Source of the DNA: Chlorobiaceae bacterium
Lineage (GTDB): Bacteria > Bacteroidota > Chlorobiia > Chlorobiales > Chlorobiaceae
DNA: 49,798 bases
Assembly: GCA_013335405.1 (NCBI GenBank)
Contig: JAAXVR010000022.1
Coordinates: forward strand, 1-49,798
Reading direction: 5' to 3'
Positions 39,076-49,798 of the stretch are shown here, piece by piece (position 1 is the stretch's first letter; each line of letters begins with the position of its first letter). The translations under genes were made by a program, and so were the position numbers. The notes under the pieces are model-generated. The model was given only the letters and a program-made list of their open reading frames with translations. It was not told the origin of the DNA and did no database searches.

Positions 39076-41820
39076 TCACAGTTTCCTTTTTTTCTCGACG
39101 ATCCTGTATGCTTCCACAAGATCACCGACCTTGATATCATCAAAATTCCTTATGCTCATGCCGCACTCGTAGCCGGCATCGACCTCCTTGACATCATCCT
39201 TGAAACGCCTGAGCGCTTCGAGAAGCCCGTCATAAATCTGTATGCCGTCGCGAAGCAGCCTGACTTTCGCGTCACGCTGGATCTTGCCTTCGAGCACATA
39301 GCAGCCTGCAACGTTGCCGACTTTAGGCACCCTGAAGATCTGGCGGATTTCGAGTGTACCGAGGCTCTCTTCATGAAGTTCGGGAGACAGCATCCCTTCG
39401 AGAGCTTTTTCGACATCCTCAAGGACATGGTAGATGACGCTGTAGAACCTGAGGTCAAGATCCTCCTTTTCGGCAAGCTTTTTCGCGTTCATGTTCGGCC
39501 TGACCCTGAAGCCGATGATGATGGCGTCGGAAGCCGCAGCAAGCAGCACGTCGGTTTCGGTAATCTGGCCGACCCCCTGGTGAATGATCATAACCTTGAC
39601 TTCCTCATTCTGGATTTTCATGAGGCCGTCGGCAAGCGCCTGGATCGAGCCGTCGGTGTCAGCCTTGATGATGACTCGCAGCTCTTTCATGAGGCCTTCC
39701 TTGATCTGGCGCGAAATACTGTCGAGCTTGACCCTGGTGCTGCGGCGGAAATCATGCTCGCGGCGGATGATCTGGCGCTTCTGCGCAAGATCCCTCGCCT
39801 CCCTGTCAGACTCCATTACGGTAAGAGCATCACCCGATTGGGGCAGCTCTTCGAAACCAAGTACCCTGACCGGTTGTGATGGTCCTGCGAACAAGATCCT
39901 CTTGCCCCTTTCGTCCATCAGTGCCCGGACCTTTCCCATGGTATTTCCTGCCACGAATGGATCGCCGACCTTGAGCAGACCACGCTGCACAAGTACCGTC
40001 GAGATGACGCCCTTGCCCTTGTCCAGCTCCGATTCGACAATGATGCCGCTTGCATTGACCTCGCCGGAATAGTTGCCCCTGAGCTCGCGAAGTTCAGCCT
40101 CGGTCAGAACTTTTTCCATCAGTTCCACAATACCGAGTCCTTTCTTTGCCGAGATCTCCTGGCACTGGTATTCGCCACCCCACTCCTCGACAAGTACGCC
40201 CGCTTCGGAAAGCTGGGTTTTGATCTTCTCGGGATTGGCTTCAGGCTTGTCTATTTTGTTGATAGCCACGACGATCGGAACACCGGCGGCCTTGGCATGA
40301 TTGATAGCTTCTATGGTCTGCGGCATGACGCTGTCATCGGCAGCGACGACAAGGATCACGATATCGGTCACCTGGGCACCTCTTGCACGCATAGCGGTAA
40401 AGGCTTCATGGCCCGGAGTATCGAGGAAGGTAATTTTCCTGTTGCCTTCGACCGTGACTTCATAGGCGCCGATATGCTGGGTAATACCGCCTGACTCGCC
40501 TGCGACCACCTTGCTGTTGCGGATATAGTCGAGCAGTGATGTCTTGCCGTGGTCGACGTGACCCATAATGGTGACAACAGGTGGACGGGTTTTCAGATCC
40601 TCTTCCTCATCCTCTTCCACTGATACGGCCGTCGCCTCGACTTCCGATACAAATTCGGCAACAAGGCCGAATTCGAGCGCGATCAATTCAATAGATTCCC
40701 TGTCGAGCCTCTGGTTGATGGTGACAAACTTGCCGAGTGAAAAACATTTCTGGATGATTTCCTTGGCGGTAATTCCCATAAGCTCCGCGAGTTCATGCGG
40801 TGAAGCATATTCGGTAACCCTGATGACCCTCTGCTGCGATTCGCGGAAGGCTTCAGCCTCTTCGAGCTCACGCTCCCTGTCCATCCTGCGGAGCCTGCGG
40901 AATTTCTGCCGGGAACCGGAACCGCCCGCTTCTTCCATCCCGCTGATCGTCGAACGGATGTTTGCCGATATGACCTTGTCGTCAACCTCCGGCTTCTTTT
41001 TCTTCTTGCCTTTTTTCTTTTTCAGACCGGCACTTTCATCAACGACGGTTTTAGGCTTTTCCTCGGCGACAACCGGCTTGACCGGCTTCTTTTTAACACC
41101 CGACTTGTCTTCAACGCGTTCTTCGGCCCCGGCTTTCGGTTCGAACTCGTCCTTGAGAGCATCTGCCTGCTCCTTGAAGTTCTTTTTACGATTCTTCCTG
41201 TTCCTGTCGGACTCCAGATTGCGACCGGCCTGCATGTCGAGCGTACCAAGTACGGTGAGACCTCCGATATTCTTCGGTATGTCATAGGAAAGCAACTGCT
41301 CGTTCGGCTGCGGTTCCTCCTTTTCCTGTTTCACTTCAGGCTCGGGAGAAACTTCTACGGCATGCATCTCTTCAGGATGCAGCGTTTCGACGGCAACAGC
41401 CGGTTCGACTTCCGGAATCACCGTCAGGAGCTCCGGTTCGGCTTCAGCTTCAACTTCAACAGGAACATGCGGAACAGGTTCTTTTTTCAGCTCGTGAACA
41501 ATTGTCACCACAGGCGCGGCAGGCGCAAGATGTTCGCTGAGCTGTTTTTCTTTTTCATACGTTTTCCGCGACTGCTCTTCGAGCCTCGTCAGTCGCAACT
41601 GCTTTTCAGCCCTGATTTTCTTTGTTTCGTCGACCATTTTCTTTTCGTCACTGAAATGGGCGAAAATTATGTCGCGGATTTCTTCGAGCACCATTGAGGA
41701 GGTTGAGGCCACCTTGCCGCCTTCCTGCTTGACAAAAAGTAATACTTCCTGCGGACTCACCTGGAGTTCTCTTGCTATGTCACTTATGCGATATTTCTTT
41801 TCCGTGTCCTCGACGGCCAT
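39076..41820 (-). CDS. infB: Translation initiation factor IF-2
   Basis: The GTPase brings fMet-tRNA to the 30S subunit. The frame runs up to 41868, but the ATG at 41818-41820 has GAGGAGG before it and begins [31 protein letters not shown], the IF2_N domain, so I use it (914 residues). A long charged linker (about 90-320) rich in Glu/Pro, with a Lys-rich tract ([10 protein letters not shown]), precedes a second IF2_N segment. The G domain follows with [34 protein letters not shown] and [10 protein letters not shown], then domains II-IV with [21 protein letters not shown]-like C2 features. It follows nusA by 44 bases. Confidence 0.97.
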
Positions 41821-41864
41821 TACTTCCTCCTCTGGATTATAACTCTTTACTCTGTATCCGAAGC

Positions 41865-43427
41865 TCACTCGTTCTCCGGTGTTCCGGTTTCAGCCGATGC
41901 CGGTTCATCATTTCCCTGCATGTCGGTCTCCTGGCTGATATCCAGCAGATCCGATTCAGTAAACTGTTCCTTGACGGTTTTGAATATGTTTTCGGCAATC
42001 TTGTGCCAGTAGCGCTTCTCGTCGTCGGTAACCTTGCGTTCCCTGGGCTTGATCGGCGGTTTGCGGCTTTTTGTGAACATCAGCGGTTCTTCAGGCTTTA
42101 CCGGACCGACAAGAGCCTGCTCTATATCGTCCACCCCCGCTTTCACAACTTTCTTCGCCGTATCGAGGCCGGCATCAAGGAGCTGGTAGATCATGTCGTC
42201 TCCGAACTCCTCACGGAACTCGATGATGTCGATATCCGTCGGATCTTCCATCGATTTGTCGATCACATCCCGATACACATCAATTTCGTATCCGGTCAGC
42301 TTTTCAGCCAGGTGGATGTTGTTGCCGTTCTTGCCTATCGCATACTTGATCTGGTCAGGTTTGAGCATCACCCTCGCCTTGCGGGTTTTCATGTCGGCAT
42401 GGATCGTAAGAGGATCGATTTTTGCCGGTTGCAAAGCCCTTGAAATGTAGATCTGGGGTTCGTCGGCATAGTAGATCACATCGATATTCTCGTTGTTCAG
42501 TTCCTTGACGATGCTCTGGATGCGTTTGCCGCGGTAACCGACCGTCGCACCGACGGGATCGATCCTTGCGCTGGTTGACTCTACAGAAACCTTGGCACGC
42601 TCGCCCGGTACCCGGGCAATGGCCTTGATGACAATCAGGCCGTCGAGGATTTCCGGCACCTCGTGTTCGAAAAGCTTGTAGAGGAACCTGTCATCTACGC
42701 GCGAAACAATAACCTTCATGCCCCCGTCGGGCTTTTCACGTTCGACAACCGATCCGTCGTCAAGTTTGAGCTTCACTTTCTCGCGTTCGATGCGCTTGAC
42801 ATAGAGTTTCATCCTTGGAGTACGACGCGGATTGTCCTTTTTCATCATCTCCGATTTTGGAAGTACCAGCTCGACCCGATGATCCCTGGAGGTGTTGTAG
42901 GTGAAAATCACCTCGTTCGAGCGTATCTGGTAGACTTCGCCGGCTACGACTTCGCCGACTTTCTCGAGGCACTCTTCATAAACGACCTGGCGTTCCAGAT
43001 CACGCACTTTTTTCTGGACTGACTGCTTGATGATCTGTATCGATTTGCGGGTCAGGAATTCATCCAGCTTGATCGGGCCTTCTTCGTAGTAGTCGCCGAC
43101 CTCGAGCGAGTCGTCTATTTTCCTGACATCCTCGATGCTGATCTCGATGGCCGGTATATCGATTTCATCGACGATCTTTTTCAGGATATAGACCTCGAAA
43201 TCACCCCTTTCGGGATTGATGAAGATGTTGGCCTCGACTTCAGGATCGTAGTCTTTGCGGAGCTGCTTCTGGATGATATCCTTGAGCAGGTCGGCAATGT
43301 CCATCTTAACCGCCGCGCTTTCCGTGCGTTTGTCGAGAAAGATTTTCGACTGCTCGATCTCACCGAAAGCGGTGGCAATCTGGGACCTCCTGTCCTGAAC
43401 CTCGTCTTTTATCTGCTTTCTGACCAT
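41865..43427 (-). CDS. nusA: Transcription elongation/termination factor NusA
   Basis: NusA binds RNA polymerase and RNA, and affects pausing, termination and antitermination. The 520-residue protein has the N-terminal polymerase-binding domain (with INPERGDFEVYILKKIV), an S1 domain (about 150-220), two KH domains (KAIARVPGERAKVSVES...DPVGATVGYRGKRIQSIVKELNNENIDVI and VMLKPDQIKYAIGKNGNNIHLAEKLTGYEIDV) and a short acidic tail. The tail lacks the E. coli-type AR repeats, as in most bacteria. It is the second gene of rimP-nusA-infB. Confidence 0.97.
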   Translation of the reverse strand: MVRKQIKDEVQDRRSQIATAFGEIEQSKIFLDKRTESAAVKMDIADLLKDIIQKQLRKDYDPEVEANIFINPERGDFEVYILKKIVDEIDIPAIEISIEDVRKIDDSLEVGDYYEEGPIKLDEFLTRKSIQIIKQSVQKKVRDLERQVVYEECLEKVGEVVAGEVYQIRSNEVIFTYNTSRDHRVELVLPKSEMMKKDNPRRTPRMKLYVKRIEREKVKLKLDDGSVVEREKPDGGMKVIVSRVDDRFLYKLFEHEVPEILDGLIVIKAIARVPGERAKVSVESTSARIDPVGATVGYRGKRIQSIVKELNNENIDVIYYADEPQIYISRALQPAKIDPLTIHADMKTRKARVMLKPDQIKYAIGKNGNNIHLAEKLTGYEIDVYRDVIDKSMEDPTDIDIIEFREEFGDDMIYQLLDAGLDTAKKVVKAGVDDIEQALVGPVKPEEPLMFTKSRKPPIKPRERKVTDDEKRYWHKIAENIFKTVKEQFTESDLLDISQETDMQGNDEPASAETGTPENE

Positions 43428-43482
43428 CTCTGCGTTATTGTGCTTTTAAATGAAAATTCCCTCATGCCTGAACAATGAAACC

Positions 43483-43989
43483 CTACAACACCGCTTCAGG
43501 TACCGCCCGGACTATCCTGTCGAGATAGAGCGTCAACGGCTGTTTTTCAGTCTTGCGACCTCCTGCCTTTTTTTGTATCGGAAAAAGCGTAATGCTGGGC
43601 CTTTCGTCATCCTGGAACCGTACTTCGGCGAGGTGGCCGAAGATCTCCTTCTCTGTACCTGCCTCGTCGGCATAGGTAATCCTCAATGGCTTGCCTGTAT
43701 GCCTGATGTACTGTCTCGCGAGCTTCAAAGGCTCCCCGAGGCCCGGGGAAGAAACCATCAGTTCGAAATCATCACCGGTTTCAGCAAGCAGATCCGCGTC
43801 GCTTTCAAGCAGTTCCCTCAGTCTGCGGCTGAACCTGGCACATTCAGCAATACGTATGCCGGAATCCGTATCGAGGATTATCTCTATTTTAGGACCGCGC
43901 TTCGGTCCTTTGAGCCTGAACTCGACAAGGTAGATCCCCTGCAACTCTTCGATAACCTGGAGCACATAGTGCCCGATGCGTTCCTGCAT
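43483..43989 (-). CDS. rimP: Ribosome maturation factor RimP
   Basis: RimP assists 30S subunit assembly. The protein from the ATG at 43987-43989 is 168 residues (MQERIGHYVLQVIEEL...). The frame also allows a TTG five codons earlier. Conserved parts are GIYLVEFRLKG, KIEIILDTDSGIRIAECARFSRRLRELLE, YELMVSSPGLGEPLKL-like (here DDFELMVSSPGLGEPLK) and a C-terminal SH3-like segment. It is the first gene of the cluster, as in E. coli, and is preceded by a terminator-like hairpin. Confidence 0.93.
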   Translation of the reverse strand: MQERIGHYVLQVIEELQGIYLVEFRLKGPKRGPKIEIILDTDSGIRIAECARFSRRLRELLESDADLLAETGDDFELMVSSPGLGEPLKLARQYIRHTGKPLRITYADEAGTEKEIFGHLAEVRFQDDERPSITLFPIQKKAGGRKTEKQPLTLYLDRIVRAVPEAVL

Positions 43990-44020
43990 GAATACCCCGA
44001 ACAATCTTTACACGGAAAAC

Positions 44021-44043
44021 AAAAAAGTGGGGCGACCCCACTT
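44021..44043 (-). terminator. Terminator-like hairpin upstream of rimP (possible attenuator)
   Basis: AAGTGGGG - TCG - CCCCACTT on the minus strand is a perfect 8-bp stem with a 3-base loop and a T6 run overlapping its end. Its end is only 31 bases before the rimP ATG, which leaves little room for a separate promoter. It may end the transcript of the upstream small membrane protein gene or act as an attenuator in the rimP-nusA-infB leader. Confidence 0.85.
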
Positions 44044-44081
44044 CAGAATAAATAATGCCGCTTGCCGCCAAATCAAGGTAA

Positions 44082-44112
44082 CAAATGTACAAAAAATATT
44101 TCAATAGTAAAA
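44082..44112 (-). promoter_or_regulatory. Candidate Bacteroidetes-type promoter of rimP-nusA-infB
   Basis: On the minus strand TACATTTG (44089-44082) fits TAnnTTTG exactly. TTTT (44112-44109) lies 19 bases upstream, a weak match to the -33 TTTG. Transcripts starting here would have a leader of roughly 85 bases that contains the hairpin at 44021-44043. Confidence 0.4.
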
Positions 44113-44116
44113 GACG

Positions 44117-44329
44117 TCACCCTTCATCCCGTTCAGGCCCGGAAAGACGGCTGTCAAGCTCTTCGTAATCAGCCTCCTCAACCATCCTGCCTCCGGAGAA
44201 GCGGGACGGGTCTGGTCCTGAGTCCCGTTTCGATCGGCCGCTGGTAAAAAAAACCCTGACGCCCAGTATCCGCAGCACGAGCCGGAACGCAAGGAACAGC
44301 ACGATAAACAGAAGAAAGAATTTCAGCAT
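44117..44329 (-). CDS. Small single-pass membrane protein, unknown function
   Basis: The 70-residue product begins MLKFFLLFIVLFLAFRLVLRI, one strongly hydrophobic helix. A Lys/Arg/Ser-rich stretch follows, then an acidic end (MVEEADYEELDSRLSG). The ATG at 44327-44329 starts exactly at the helix; an ATG at 44380 in the same frame would add 17 residues. I do not recognise it. Proteins of this form (N-terminal anchor, short acidic tail) are common hypotheticals in Bacteroidetes/Chlorobi. It lies between the glutaredoxin-like gene and rimP, all on the same strand. Confidence 0.6.
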   Translation of the reverse strand: MLKFFLLFIVLFLAFRLVLRILGVRVFFTSGRSKRDSGPDPSRFSGGRMVEEADYEELDSRLSGPERDEG

Positions 44330-44404
44330 GAGTTGAAAAGGTTTCTTGAAAATGCCATGTCCGCAGACAATCTCATTCATCCATCAGGAACAGGCAACGG
44401 CTTT

Positions 44405-44650
44405 TCAGGACAACAGCTCCCTGAACCGCCGCTCATTGATGCGATATCTGAATGCCTGGACACCGTCAACGAAGATGACCGGTATTACGGTGCCGAACCG
44501 CTCGAGCAGTTCGGGATTGTCGGTAATGTCTTTTTTCTCAAGGTCGAAAGACACCGATACTGCCACCTTTTCAATCACCGCCATTGCCTCGTCGCACAGG
44601 CAACACTCCTTTTTTCCGTAAAGTGTCACGGTATGACGTTGTGCGCTCAT
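44405..44650 (-). CDS. Glutaredoxin-like protein with CxxC motif
   Basis: An 81-residue thioredoxin-fold protein: TVTLYGKKECCLCDEAMAVIEKV (CCLC, redox pair Cys-x-x-Cys), the cis-Pro turn TVIPVIFVDGVQAF and a final helix INERRFRELL. It belongs to the short glutaredoxin/DUF836 type. The ATG at 44648-44650 has GGGGGAG 11 bases upstream; a GTG four codons earlier overlaps the hisS stop. Function is probably thiol-disulfide exchange; the partner is unknown. Confidence 0.8.
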   Translation of the reverse strand: MSAQRHTVTLYGKKECCLCDEAMAVIEKVAVSVSFDLEKKDITDNPELLERFGTVIPVIFVDGVQAFRYRINERRFRELLS

Positions 44651-44658
44651 TTTTCCGG

Positions 44659-45939
44659 TCACTCCCCCGATGCGGGTTCATGGAGAATTTCAATCAGTCT
44701 GTCAAGCGGAAGGGTCGATTGTTCCGACGTAACGAGATTTTTCAGGGTGTACTGTCCCGTTGCAACTTCGTTTTCACCGATGAACAGGGCAAAGGAACAA
44801 CGGAGGCGGTTCGCTTCCCTCATCTGTGATTTCATGCTTCTCCCTGCAAGGTCCGCTTCAGTCCGAATACCGGATTTACGCAGCCTGAAGGTGACCTGCA
44901 TGGCAACGTCGGTATACTCCTGCTGCTGCAGTACAACGTAAACGAGCGGCGCCTGCAGTTTCAGCGCAGTAAAAAGACCCTGTTTTTCCATCGTCATGAG
45001 CAGACGTTCCATACCGACTGCAAATCCTGCGGCAGGAATATCCGAGGAACTGCCAAGCTCCCTGGCCAGGCCATCGTACCGCCCCCCCCCTCCCACGGCA
45101 TCCTGGGCGCCCAGTTCGGTTCCGGTAACCTCGAATGCGGTGTAACAGTAGTAATCGAGGCCCCTTACAAGCCTATGGTCGATATCGAAGGCAATTCCCC
45201 TTTCGGAAAGGTAAAAGAGTACTTTATCGAAATCATCGAGGGCTTCCGTATCGAGATAGTCATAAAGTTTCGGCGCACCCGAAACAATCTCCTGCAGGTC
45301 AGGGTTCTTGGAATCGAGAATCCTGAGCGGATTCTTTTCGAGCCTTTCGAGCGAAGGGGTATCGAGCTTCTGGCGATACGGGCTGAAATAAGCCTGCAAC
45401 GCTTCGCGGTATCGAAGCCGGTCATGAGTGCCTCCGAGGGAATTGATCCGCAGACGGAGACCCCGGAGACCGAGTGAATCGAAAACCTGCATCATGAACG
45501 TAATGACTTCTGCCACAGCGGCAGGAGAGGAAACTCCGAGCAATTCGGCACCGAACTGGGAAAACTGCCGTTGCCTTCCCGCCTGAGGTCTTTCCTTTCG
45601 GAACAGTTCGCTTATGTAATAGAGCTTCTGCACCGGAGCGGTACCGAGAATGTTCTTCTGCAGCGCAGCCCTCATGACTCCTGCGGTCATTTCGGGACGC
45701 AGTGTTATCGATCGGCCGTTCGGGTCTGGCTGGAATGAGAACATCTCCTTGCCGACAATGTCGGTCGTCGAACCGATCCCTCTCTGGAAAAGTTCGGTGT
45801 ATTCGAAAACAGGTGTCCTTATTTCGTTGAATCCGTAAAGAGCGGCAAGAGCGTGCACAACGCCTTCGACATGTTTCCACCTGGCGGCTTCCTCGGGGAA
45901 AATATCCCGTGCGCCCTTGACTGCCTGATACTGCGGCAT
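44659..45939 (-). CDS. hisS: Histidyl-tRNA synthetase
   Basis: A class II synthetase of 426 residues from the ATG at 45937-45939 ([21 protein letters not shown]); the frame runs on to 46002 but family proteins start here. Motif 1 and 2 regions ([27 protein letters not shown] and [24 protein letters not shown]), the histidine-specific [15 protein letters not shown] and motif 3 [14 protein letters not shown]...[12 protein letters not shown] are all present, and the anticodon-binding domain follows. The PTS IIA gene lies 34 bases upstream. Confidence 0.97.
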
Positions 45940-45973
45940 ATTGAAAATGATCCCTGCTGGTAGTATGGAGAAA

Positions 45974-46444
45974 TTAAATTGCCGGCAAATCTTTTTCCTC
46001 ATGCCGGAAAAGTTCGAGAACTTCCCTGGCTGACGTGGAAAGAATCAGCCTGTTCCGGACCTCGTCCCTGCCTGCAAGCCGTGTTATACGGCCAAGGAGC
46101 TTCAGATGTTCGGTAAGCATTGTTTCGGGAGTCGCAAGAAAAAAAACGATCCTGACGGGAAGGTTGTCGATAGCATCGAAATTGATATCGTCCCTGAGCG
46201 TGGCAAAAGCGAGGACAGGTTCGCTGACAGCTTCGGTTTTCGCATGGGGAAGGGCAATCTGTTTTCCGATGCCGGTTGACATTTCATGTTCACGCTTGAG
46301 GACATCCTCTTTCAGCTGACCGATGTTCCTGACAGCAGGATGATCTGCGACGATAGAGAGCATTTTTTCTATCACCTGGCTTTTCGAAGTCAGATCAAGG
46401 TCAAGAACGATCGTATTCTCGGAAAGGAGACCTTCAATTTTCAT
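45974..46444 (-). CDS. PTS IIA-domain protein (PtsN/fructose IIA type)
   Basis: A 156-residue protein with the mannitol/fructose IIA fold. It has [24 protein letters not shown], whose His in LPHAKT is the phosphorylation site, and [21 protein letters not shown]. In many bacteria such proteins are regulators (EIIA-Ntr) rather than sugar transporters. No IIB, IIC, HPr or EI gene is in the window, so a regulatory role is likelier. It lies between cdsA and hisS on the same strand. Confidence 0.88.
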
Positions 46445-46572
46445 ATCGTCAACCTCTTGCCTTTTCTCCTGTTGTCTGCAGAAGAGAGTTCGCTGTAACT
46501 GGACTGAACCGATAATATATATAAAACTTTTCCATCCTTAAGGACAAACCGGCAATGCTTGCCGCACGAGTT

Positions 46573-47394
46573 TCAAAGCCTGAAGGTTATGAAATAGATG
46601 AACGGTGAAACGAACATGATGGTGTCGAACCGGTCAAGTACCCCTCCGTGCCCGGGTATCAGCGCCGAAGAGTCTTTTACGCCGGCATCCCTTTTGAACA
46701 TCGATTCTATGAGATCTCCGGCCGGGCTCGACAGACCGATAAGCAGTCCGGTAAGGATGGCTGTTTTCAGGGGAAGCTGCGGCATGGCGCTGCTGAACAG
46801 GTATGAAGCCGCAAGGCTCCCGGCAAGACCGAAAATGAACCCCTCCCATGTTTTATGCGGGCTCAGCCGTTCGAAAAGCCTGCGATGGATGAATTTCCCT
46901 CCGAGCGTGCTGCCCCCGAAGTAGGCGCATATGTCCGCAGACCAGACGCAGAGAAACATGAGGAACACCATGATCCGCCCGGAGTCATCAGGAGCGTCGA
47001 GGCGCAGCCTCAGGAGGGAACCGAACGAAAGGTTGACATAGAGCAGCCCCGGCAGAAGCGAACCAAGATTGAGAAGCGGAGAGCCGTCCTTCAGAAAAAG
47101 TTCTATAACGAGCAGCGCGATCAGGACCGCGAGCAGCAGTTCCCATACCTCGGCGAAATGGAGGTAGAAATCCAGCTGAAGAGCGAGGGTGATCAGAAGA
47201 ACAAGCCAAAGGGGAGGGGGGCTTGCCTTGTGGAGCGCCAGCCGGTGATACTCGAACGTCGCAACGAGGGAGAGTATCAGGAAAAAACCGAAAAACAGGT
47301 ACTCTCCTGCCTGAATCAGCCACAAGAGAAAGGGAATGCCGACAATGGCGACCAGAACCCTCTGCAACAAGTTAACACTCAGCAATTTAGCCAT
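46573..47394 (-). CDS. cdsA: Phosphatidate cytidylyltransferase
   Basis: CdsA makes CDP-diacylglycerol from phosphatidic acid and CTP, the branch point of phospholipid synthesis. The 273-residue membrane protein has about eight hydrophobic helices. Its complete family signature is near the C-terminus: SMFKRDAGVKDSSALIPGHG followed by GVLDRFD. CPBP lies just upstream. The 128-base gap to the PTS gene shows no feature. Confidence 0.96.
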   Translation of the reverse strand: MAKLLSVNLLQRVLVAIVGIPFLLWLIQAGEYLFFGFFLILSLVATFEYHRLALHKASPPPLWLVLLITLALQLDFYLHFAEVWELLLAVLIALLVIELFLKDGSPLLNLGSLLPGLLYVNLSFGSLLRLRLDAPDDSGRIMVFLMFLCVWSADICAYFGGSTLGGKFIHRRLFERLSPHKTWEGFIFGLAGSLAASYLFSSAMPQLPLKTAILTGLLIGLSSPAGDLIESMFKRDAGVKDSSALIPGHGGVLDRFDTIMFVSPFIYFITFRL

Positions 47395-47414
47395 ATATCA
47401 GTAGTTACCCTGCA

Positions 47415-48377
47415 TTACTTTCTGTTTTCTCCGTGTTCCGCTCCGCTTGCTGAACAGATACCTGAAAAGCGCCTGACAACAAGAGTGAAAAGCACCATGC
47501 TCACGACAACCAGAAGCCACCACCATGGCGAATAAACCACGCGCTCCGGGTGCGGAACACCGACAGAGGCATTGCTGCCGGTAAATAACAGCACGAGCAA
47601 CGCTGCCAGGTTGTTCACGAAATGCACGAATACGGAAACAGCAAGATTACCGGATACAGCGTAAATATAGCCAATAAACCACCCAAGCAAAGCAAGAGGA
47701 AGAAGATTGGCCGGACTCAGATGGAAGAACGCAAAAGCAAAACCCGTCAATACGACCGCATTGCCCGGAGAAACCGATCTTGTGTAATTTTTCTGGATGT
47801 ACCCGCGGAACAGCAGTTCTTCGCAGAAAGCGGGAAGAAGGGCGAGAACAAGGAGAACTGCGAAAAAACCGGGAAGGTCCCGTACCCTTGCAAGTTCCTT
47901 GATGAACGCATCCATCTGCTGCTGCTGACGCACCACCTCGGCTCCCGCTTTACCGAGCGCAGGCCACAGGTAAAGTTCCTCAAGAGAGGTGATGGTGTGG
48001 AGCAGCGGCTGAAGAAGAAAAATGCCGGCAACGGCAAGGAAAAGCGCCCGTGAATCAGGAACTTCCCCGATGCCCAGAAACGCGAGGCTCTCTCCGGAAA
48101 AGGGGTTGCCGGTGCGAGTATGGAAAGCGGCAAGGAAAAGTACCGGAAGTGCCAGAAGCAGCAACTGTGCCGTTCCCTGACTGAAAAGGATTTCAGGGAA
48201 CATCGTTCTGACCGATTCCGGCGTGAAAATCGCAGCGGTATCGACGCCGCTTTTGCCGAGCAGAAACAGCAGCACCTGACCGGAAAGCAGGTAGAGCACC
48301 ATCATCACAGCGAGGATGATCGTATTGATTATGAACGATGGCCGTTTTCCGGCAAAAGGATCGTACGTGGTCAGCAT
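47415..48377 (-). CDS. CPBP-family intramembrane metalloprotease
   Basis: A 320-residue membrane protein with about eight helices and the CPBP (Rce1/Abi) motifs: EELLFRGYIQ (EExxxR), FAFFHLSPANLLPL (FxxxH) and VHFVNNLAALLV (HxxxN). Relatives process prenylated proteins in eukaryotes. In bacteria the substrates are mostly unknown, though some act in stress or bacteriocin immunity. It precedes cdsA by 20 bases and is probably co-transcribed; nothing nearby names its target. Confidence 0.9.
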   Translation of the reverse strand: MLTTYDPFAGKRPSFIINTIILAVMMVLYLLSGQVLLFLLGKSGVDTAAIFTPESVRTMFPEILFSQGTAQLLLLALPVLFLAAFHTRTGNPFSGESLAFLGIGEVPDSRALFLAVAGIFLLQPLLHTITSLEELYLWPALGKAGAEVVRQQQQMDAFIKELARVRDLPGFFAVLLVLALLPAFCEELLFRGYIQKNYTRSVSPGNAVVLTGFAFAFFHLSPANLLPLALLGWFIGYIYAVSGNLAVSVFVHFVNNLAALLVLLFTGSNASVGVPHPERVVYSPWWWLLVVVSMVLFTLVVRRFSGICSASGAEHGENRK

Positions 48378-48620
48378 TGAATTCTGTATTTACGAAGCGT
48401 TACCGTGAGTCATCCGGAATTTGATACCTTGCCTTTCATAAGCCCCTCAGGGGCATGTCACGGGAAACCGGAATAAAAAAGGGACCGTGTTTCCGTTAAA
48501 ATCCCGGAGAATCTATCTTTATTGATCATACCAAAGTGAAGTGAACTGCTCGCCGCGTCAATAAACACAGACAGATGAAACACAAGCAATAACGAATTTA
48601 CCTGCCTGCAAATAAAAGCC
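48378..48620. other. Divergent intergenic region with a small GC-rich hairpin
   Basis: This 243-base gap lies between the divergent CPBP and glycosyltransferase genes. GCCCC-TCA-GGGGC (48442-48454) forms a tight hairpin, with ATGTC after it. TATCTTTA near 48515 resembles a -7 box (one mismatch) for the glycosyltransferase. I see no gene. Confidence 0.4.
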
Positions 48621-49598
48621 ATGAAAAAACAGGAATTTACCGGCAGTATTCACTGCCAGCCGAAAAGCATTGTGCTTCTTGCCAGGGAACGCTACGGAGA
48701 CGCAATACTGATGACCCCGCTCATAAAAGCTCTTCGGCACGAATATCCGGAAATTTCGATTTACATCATCGCATTCACCCGTATCATTTTCGATTTTTTC
48801 AGTACAGATGCCAATATCACAGCGGTTTATCATGCAAAAAAAAAACCGGGGAGATATTTTTCGGAAGTGCTCCTGAAAAAATTCGACATCCTGTTCAATC
48901 CAAAAAACCATCCATCGAAAAGTTTTTATCTCCAGTCACGCTTCATCCGCGCCAGGTACAAAGTCGGGCATCGCAATACGAACCATGACGATCTCTACGA
49001 TTACCTCATCGACCTTGCCCCCGGTACCCATGAATCACTGAGGAACCTCTCCCTTCTGACCGCGCTCGGCAAAACTCCAGCAAAGGAGTATCGGCCTTAT
49101 ATTCCGGAAATGCCACTTTCCGATGAAGCGAAGCTGTTCATTGACAAACTGCCAACAGATTATTGTACAGGAATTAATATCAGTGCGGGTGCACCGGGCG
49201 GGCACAGAACAGTTGAACAGTGGTCGGATCTTGTCAGGAATTTCCCGGACGAAAAGTTTATTGTGTTTTCCGGGATGGCAGATATCGGGGAAAAAAGGGC
49301 TCTCGAGAAACTGCATGAAAACATCCAGCCCTCCCCAGCCACGAAAAATCTCTACGAAGTGTGGAAAATCGTTCAAAAGCTCAAGCTTCTGGTCACTCCC
49401 GACACCTCCCTCGTTCATGTCGCATCCTGTTCGGACACACCACTGGTTGCCATGTACCGGTATAATCCTGCGGACAGCATCGAGTTCTCTCCCCTGAGTA
49501 CGTATCGGGAAGTCCTTGTATCACCAGCAACGGATATTTCGGCTATCGAAAATACTCTTGTTTCTTCGGCACTTGGCAGGATGATTGAATTACTTTGA
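48621..49598 (+). CDS. Glycosyltransferase family 9 (heptosyltransferase-like)
   Basis: A 325-residue cytoplasmic enzyme of the WaaF/WaaC fold, which adds heptose or a related sugar to the LPS core. The N-terminal domain has SIVLLARERYGDAILMTPLIKALRHEYPEISIYII. The C-terminal nucleotide-sugar domain has NISAGAPGGHRTVEQWSDLV, KLLVTPDTSLVHVASCSDTPLVAMY and a short ending. The loop FDILFNPKNHPSKSFYLQSRFIRARYKVGH matches family members. A second GT9 gene lies convergent just beyond, suggesting an LPS-core or surface-glycan locus. Confidence 0.9.
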   Translation: MKKQEFTGSIHCQPKSIVLLARERYGDAILMTPLIKALRHEYPEISIYIIAFTRIIFDFFSTDANITAVYHAKKKPGRYFSEVLLKKFDILFNPKNHPSKSFYLQSRFIRARYKVGHRNTNHDDLYDYLIDLAPGTHESLRNLSLLTALGKTPAKEYRPYIPEMPLSDEAKLFIDKLPTDYCTGINISAGAPGGHRTVEQWSDLVRNFPDEKFIVFSGMADIGEKRALEKLHENIQPSPATKNLYEVWKIVQKLKLLVTPDTSLVHVASCSDTPLVAMYRYNPADSIEFSPLSTYREVLVSPATDISAIENTLVSSALGRMIELL

Positions 49599-49641
49599 AC
49601 ATTTTTTCGTGTCCAGCTAAGACTGCTGGCATAATGAACTT

Positions 49642-49798
49642 TCACTTGACTTCACAAATTCTTTCCATCGACTCTGCCACGGCATTCGGCATTATGTTTT
49701 CGAGACACTTGTAGTGCCTGTATCTGCAAACGCGATCGAAACAGGGTGCACAGGGCTCAGGAACGTTCATCGCAAGGCTTCGCTTCCCGAGAGGACGG
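49642..49798 (-). CDS. Glycosyltransferase family 9, C-terminal end only (cut by window)
   Basis: The minus strand from the right edge to the TGA at 49642-49644 reads RPLGKRSLAMNVPEPCAPCF, DRVCRYRHYKCLENIMPNAV and AESMERICEVK. The spaced cysteines (C-x-P-C, then C, then C) followed by an I-x-P-x-x-V helix are the usual C-terminus of heptosyltransferase-type GT9 enzymes. The gene continues beyond the window. It converges on the GT9 gene at 48621-49598 with 43 bases between stops, where CCAGC/GCTGG (49614-49630) could form a weak hairpin. Confidence 0.75.
   Translation of the reverse strand, partial: RPLGKRSLAMNVPEPCAPCFDRVCRYRHYKCLENIMPNAVAESMERICEVK

Follow-up and report, generated by a model that had tools for sequence, protein, structure and literature searches.

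The closest described counterpart of the element reported here is the general rimP-leader of Naville and Gautheret (2010; PMC2965389, Figure 2b legend), whose paper ranked rimP first among the genes with leader terminators. The passages of that paper on this leader place a hairpin with a G-rich 5′ arm, a C-rich 3′ arm and a T-stretch 4 to 130 nt upstream of rimP in rimP-nusA-infB operons, describe a general form without a visible antiterminator, and favour NusA as the effector, with feedback by RimP also considered. According to a 2025 review (PMC12288461), NusA from B. subtilis is autoregulated through NusA-stimulated termination in its own leader, and E. coli NusA is reported to take part in the control of its own synthesis (PMC6511841). 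For Chlorobi or Bacteroidota, we found no report of a rimP leader among the matches listed (judged by title and the start of the abstract), the general paper apart, and no start-site papers on Chlorobi among the matches listed; the main text of a B. thetaiotaomicron transcriptome paper (PMC7366714) mentions neither rimP nor nusA. Chlorobi may nevertheless already figure in the species lists of PMC2965389.

The locus described here lies in a stretch of 49,798 nucleotides from a Chlorobiaceae bacterium, which we call the window. On its minus strand, the order is hisS, a glutaredoxin-like gene, a gene for a small protein of 87 amino acids, 127 bases, and then rimP, nusA and infB, with the following features:

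44117 to 44380, minus strand: upstream small protein of 87 amino acids, no Pfam match, ending 4 bases before the -35 region
44107 to 44112, minus strand: predicted -35 region TTTTAC, with a 17-nt spacer to the -10 hexamer
44084 to 44089, minus strand: -10 hexamer TACATT, within the TAnnTTTG box TACATTTG (44089-44082)
44045 to 44077, minus strand: leader between the predicted start (about 44076) and the hairpin, poorly conserved class-wide
44024 to 44044, minus strand: predicted terminator-like hairpin GAAGTGGGG-TCG-CCCCACTTT, with a 9-bp stem and a 3-base loop
44016 to 44026, minus strand: U-tract T6-G-T4, TTTTTTGTTTT (T6 at 44026-44021, G at 44020, T4 at 44019-44016)
43483 to 43989, minus strand: rimP, first gene of the operon, matching RimP_N (PF02576, E 1.4e-11)
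41865 to 43427, minus strand: nusA, second gene of the operon, with KH_5 and NusA_N matches (Pfam)
39076 to 41868, minus strand: infB (IF2), named from its translation alone in the list of open reading frames

The small protein at 44117-44380 has a hydrophobic start and, by tblastn, is also encoded upstream of rimP in 39 of 76 relatives. At gathering scores, Rfam returned two tRNAs only for the whole window, a search of RimP against plasmids gave no match, and neither did a 16S search in five genomes.

We propose, with a probability of about 0.65, that these parts form a transcription attenuator in the 5′ leader of rimP-nusA-infB that is subject to feedback by NusA, while the attenuator layout by itself is very probable. 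RNA polymerase would start near 44076 from a sigma70-type promoter and make a leader of about 55 to 60 nt. At the GUGGGG/CCCCAC hairpin and its U6-G-U4 tract, either the RNA would be released or the polymerase would continue into the operon, and NusA, the product of the second gene, would increase the fraction that stops. High NusA would thus lead to less NusA, RimP and IF2 being made, and scarce NusA would let more polymerases pass, with no alternative RNA structure required. An initial annotation, made from the DNA alone, had suggested a possible attenuator at this place, and the order of the parts, their conservation and their attachment to rimP support that layout well.

The same annotation described a hairpin with a T6 run 31 bases before rimP, and the sequence confirms it as a 9-bp stem followed by T6-G-T4, the rimP ATG (43989) lying 31 bases past the T6 run. 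Although its stem has the most pairs among the 11 terminator-like sites found in 42000-49798, that number of sites is no excess over shuffles (mean 9.3). Folded alone, the hairpin reaches -12.6 kcal/mol, and none of 200 shuffles fold as well, whereas neither the 64-nt leader (25 of 200 shuffles equally good) nor the 92-nt stretch up to the ATG (99 of 200) is unusually stable. Allowing at most one mismatch and keeping the spacing fixed, GTGGGNNNNNCCCACTTTTT has a single occurrence in the 2.47-Mb genome, which is the one at rimP.

Conservation in Chlorobi was followed through a NusA scan that gave 78 loci, 76 of them with rimP; the two in which no rimP was found (L018 and L063) were dropped before all counts. 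The strict finder reported the hairpin and tract in 75 of the 76 rimP-bearing loci, and also in the window. In the 76th (L073), an imperfect GTGGG...CCCGC-T10 can be seen by eye further upstream if an over-long start is allowed for, and it was left out of the alignment, so that the 76 aligned loci discussed below are the 75 strict relatives and the window. Thus, the conservation of hairpin and promoter before rimP in relatives, which the initial annotation had named as its own test, was observed. The stem, GTGGGG/CCCCAC with T6 after it in the window, is short and hardly varies among Chlorobi. A hairpin-anchored information profile, for which 48 of 52 dereplicated loci were kept (L070 to L072 and L074 left out), is high in the tract and beside the stem; most of the leader stays under 0.5 bit.

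The tract reads T6-8, G, T in all 76 aligned loci. In the same genome, 13 of 19 other intergenic terminator-like hairpin readings have a first T-run of six or fewer, being interrupted as early or earlier, and none carries T6-8-GTT; this background is small (19 readings from 290 kb, with four hairpins read on both strands), and the window hairpin is absent from it, probably masked by an open reading frame on the opposite strand. Given this background, we regard the invariant G as a mark of the lineage. The proposal that the U-tract is suboptimal and hence NusA-dependent was dropped, as the rimP tract is not weaker than those of the other hairpins in the genome. The first of the two hairpins in the E. 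coli leader sequence ends in TTTTTTGTT, which resembles the Chlorobi tract, but this likeness may be a coincidence.

Upstream of the hairpin, TACATT, TATATT, TATAAT or TATACT was found in all 76 aligned loci, 33 to 47 nt before the hairpin in 71 of them; this set of four hexamers, which was picked after inspecting the sequences, was present in 537 of 3800 shuffles. With the 17-nt spacer, TT at -23/-22 occurs in 74 of the 76. The initial annotation had placed a TAnnTTTG promoter about 40 bases before the hairpin, and a site is indeed there, with TACATTTG 37 bases before the stem. As a conserved form, however, TAnnTTTG did not hold, since only 5 of the 76 loci, the window included, have it exactly, and the promoter is therefore better termed sigma70-like. 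A consensus promoter scan did not include the site among the 4 that it listed. The expectation of a leader RNA of about 70 bases also has to be revised, as the predicted terminated RNA, counted from the putative start, would be about 55 to 60 nt. In the promoter profile of 52 dereplicated loci, we also observed a T-run in the spacer that abuts the -10 hexamer (44090-44097 in the window), in which six positions each carry T in 43 to 49 of the 52 loci.

Between promoter and hairpin, there is no sign of a conserved antiterminator or switch structure in the Chlorobi rimP leader. Pairing of the 5′ arm with the leader was 0.45 vs 0.44 for shuffled leaders, being higher in 26 of 52 loci, and the leader folds more weakly than its own shuffles (-4.4 vs -5.2 kcal/mol). 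As for a leader peptide, the window has a single TTG-started frame, and inspection by eye shows that many relatives close it with ATT-TGA or ATT-TAA.

Compared with the general rimP-leader as set out in PMC2965389, the window hairpin lies within the published distance, with 31 nt from T6 to the ATG, has the G-rich 5′ arm, the C-rich 3′ arm and the T-stretch, and likewise lacks a visible antiterminator. Against the GGGc(...)gCCC given there, the window has the GGG and the CCC but G...C in place of the lower-case c...g, its core being GGGG...CCCC, and in one family of the wider sample (f18), 6 of 6 genomes show GGGC...GCCC. What sets Chlorobi apart from that description is the T6-8-G-T tract and a conserved promoter-like site about 40 nt upstream. 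The Rfam model RF01770 (rimP) is absent from the 4 matches obtained up to E 10 for 43950-44150, and none of its 23 weak matches in the genome falls at the rimP hairpin; the four matches around the hairpin were set aside as unrelated low scorers. Judged by sequence features, the Chlorobi leader would thus be the general rimP-leader attenuator of Naville and Gautheret (2010) and not RF01770. The B. subtilis nusA leader shares a terminator in the 5′ leader, although PMC2965389 gives its length as 180 nt vs about 90 nt in the window. The E. coli metY-rimP-nusA-infB leader (PMC6511841) shares terminators before rimP (t1 and t2) but, unlike the Chlorobi leader, is described as having a tRNA gene, several promoters and two terminators; the NusA control reported there is that of E. 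coli.

By analogy with these systems, feedback by NusA would be the likeliest mechanism in Chlorobi. It is also conceivable that the attenuator is set by another effector, be it NusG, RimP, a ribosomal protein, Rho-linked events or the state of translation, given that the sequence by itself names none. Distal interruptions of the U-tract are frequent in NusG-dependent terminators of B. subtilis (PMC8060035), and feedback by RimP was among the options weighed in PMC2965389. We nevertheless consider such an effector unlikely, because control of the rimP-nusA-infB operon by NusA has been reported in both B. subtilis (PMC12288461) and E. coli (PMC6511841), in the accounts cited above, and because no conserved switch structure was seen. 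The one genome in the wider sample with no detectable RimP (G109) had no hairpin that we could find before nusA, a lone case that control by RimP would also explain.

A simpler reading, offered by the initial annotation as well, is that the hairpin ends the upstream small-protein transcript. In its full form, it would be a plain terminator of the hisS-glutaredoxin-small protein transcript, with rimP transcribed from some other site and a promoter-like box that is due to chance. Part of this stands, as the hairpin sits after the small gene, and transcripts coming in from upstream would stop there too; the silence of the consensus promoter scan at this site also speaks for it. What it leaves unexplained is that, in three loci (L070, L071 and L072), the nearest clear upstream gene is divergent from rimP (a radical-SAM protein in one and an Rrf2 regulator in two), yet the promoter and the hairpin are kept, from which we conclude that the hairpin goes with rimP. 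Chance also fits poorly with a -10 hexamer in 76 of 76 loci vs 537 of 3800 shuffles. Furthermore, only 31 nt separate the tract from the ATG, which, as far as the layout allows us to infer, leaves no room for another promoter, so that the rimP mRNA would have to read through the hairpin. We therefore find a plain terminator quite improbable, although the hairpin can serve both as the end of the upstream transcript and as the rimP leader. A free-standing gene for a trans-acting small RNA (promoter, about 55 nt and terminator), with rimP reached by leak-through, would agree with promoter and terminator being the best conserved parts, but it is very hard to credit when the RNA body itself shows little class-wide conservation (mostly below 0.5 bit) and the unit precedes rimP in the 76 Chlorobi loci that carry this gene.

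The proposed attenuator was also followed outside Chlorobi. A search for RimP in 118 genomes of the phylum, which we take to be Bacteroidota, gave a match in 117; 90 RimP-bearing genomes lie outside Chlorobiaceae, and the upstream stretch of 80 of these was taken, so that every genus is represented at least once. L090, which is among the 80, and L072 probably stem from a single record, and the gene starts, assigned by rule, are wrong in some rows. Within 150 nt before rimP, the strict finder reported a hairpin in 51 of the 80 genomes, while shuffles averaged 1.7 of 80. A relaxed fold-based finder that allows mismatches reported 68 of 80, with 3 of 80 in controls further upstream and 40 of 400 in shuffles, and the union of the two finders, a figure that has no null of its own, puts a hairpin before rimP in 75 of 80. 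Among the remaining five, hairpins appear in G064 and G085 when the start is placed further in, and G017 and G076 have, by eye, a hairpin with a short T-run; in G111, none was seen before rimP. In 40 of the 51 strict genomes, the 150 nt preceding the hairpin contain a -10-like box, a count that likewise comes with no null. NusA_N was found in 118 of 118 genomes and adjoins RimP by eye, save for a contig break in G066. As a separate observation, NusA_N was matched only from profile position 14-19 in 30 of 30 Chlorobiales genomes and from 1-2 in the other 88 (split in G004), and judged from these matches, Chlorobiales NusA has a head whose start is unlike that in the other sampled genomes.

The stems of the 51 strict hairpins are alike within most families and different between families, with a 5′ arm that is G-rich in 30, C-rich in 18 and even in 3. 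Across the phylum, stems include GTGGGG/CCCCAC, GAGGGGAC/GTCCCCTC and the arm-swapped TCGCCCC/GGGGCGA. Given these shifts, including the swap of G-rich and C-rich arms, phylum-wide recognition of one stem sequence is unlikely. In L098, L104 and L112 (family f9), L095 (f7), L101 (f12) and others, the C-rich arm precedes the G-rich one, opposite to the order in the published motif. Some genomes carry a tandem pair of terminator-like hairpins before rimP (L094, L163 and L164 in f6, L184 in f27), an arrangement that has been reported for Gammaproteobacteria. It is tempting, but at present rather doubtful, to suppose that the attenuator before rimP-nusA-infB goes back to the ancestor of the phylum as a whole, that its sensor would read shape and not sequence, with one locked stem per family while the hairpin, the U-run and the place before rimP are kept, and that the U6-8-G-U of Chlorobi would be a release site tuned to respond to NusA, and perhaps to NusG.

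This kind of attenuator has been known since 2010, and the present analysis is of value for extending it firmly and for the swapped stems. Limitation of its own operon by NusA, a control already known but little tested, would be extended to green sulfur bacteria and, by sequence, across the phylum. In the account of PMC2965389, the GGGc...gCCC motif suggested sequence recognition by NusA; the stem changes from family to family, with arms swapped in some, and this natural variation could serve to tell whether NusA reads the sequence or only the shape of the hairpin and the U-tract.
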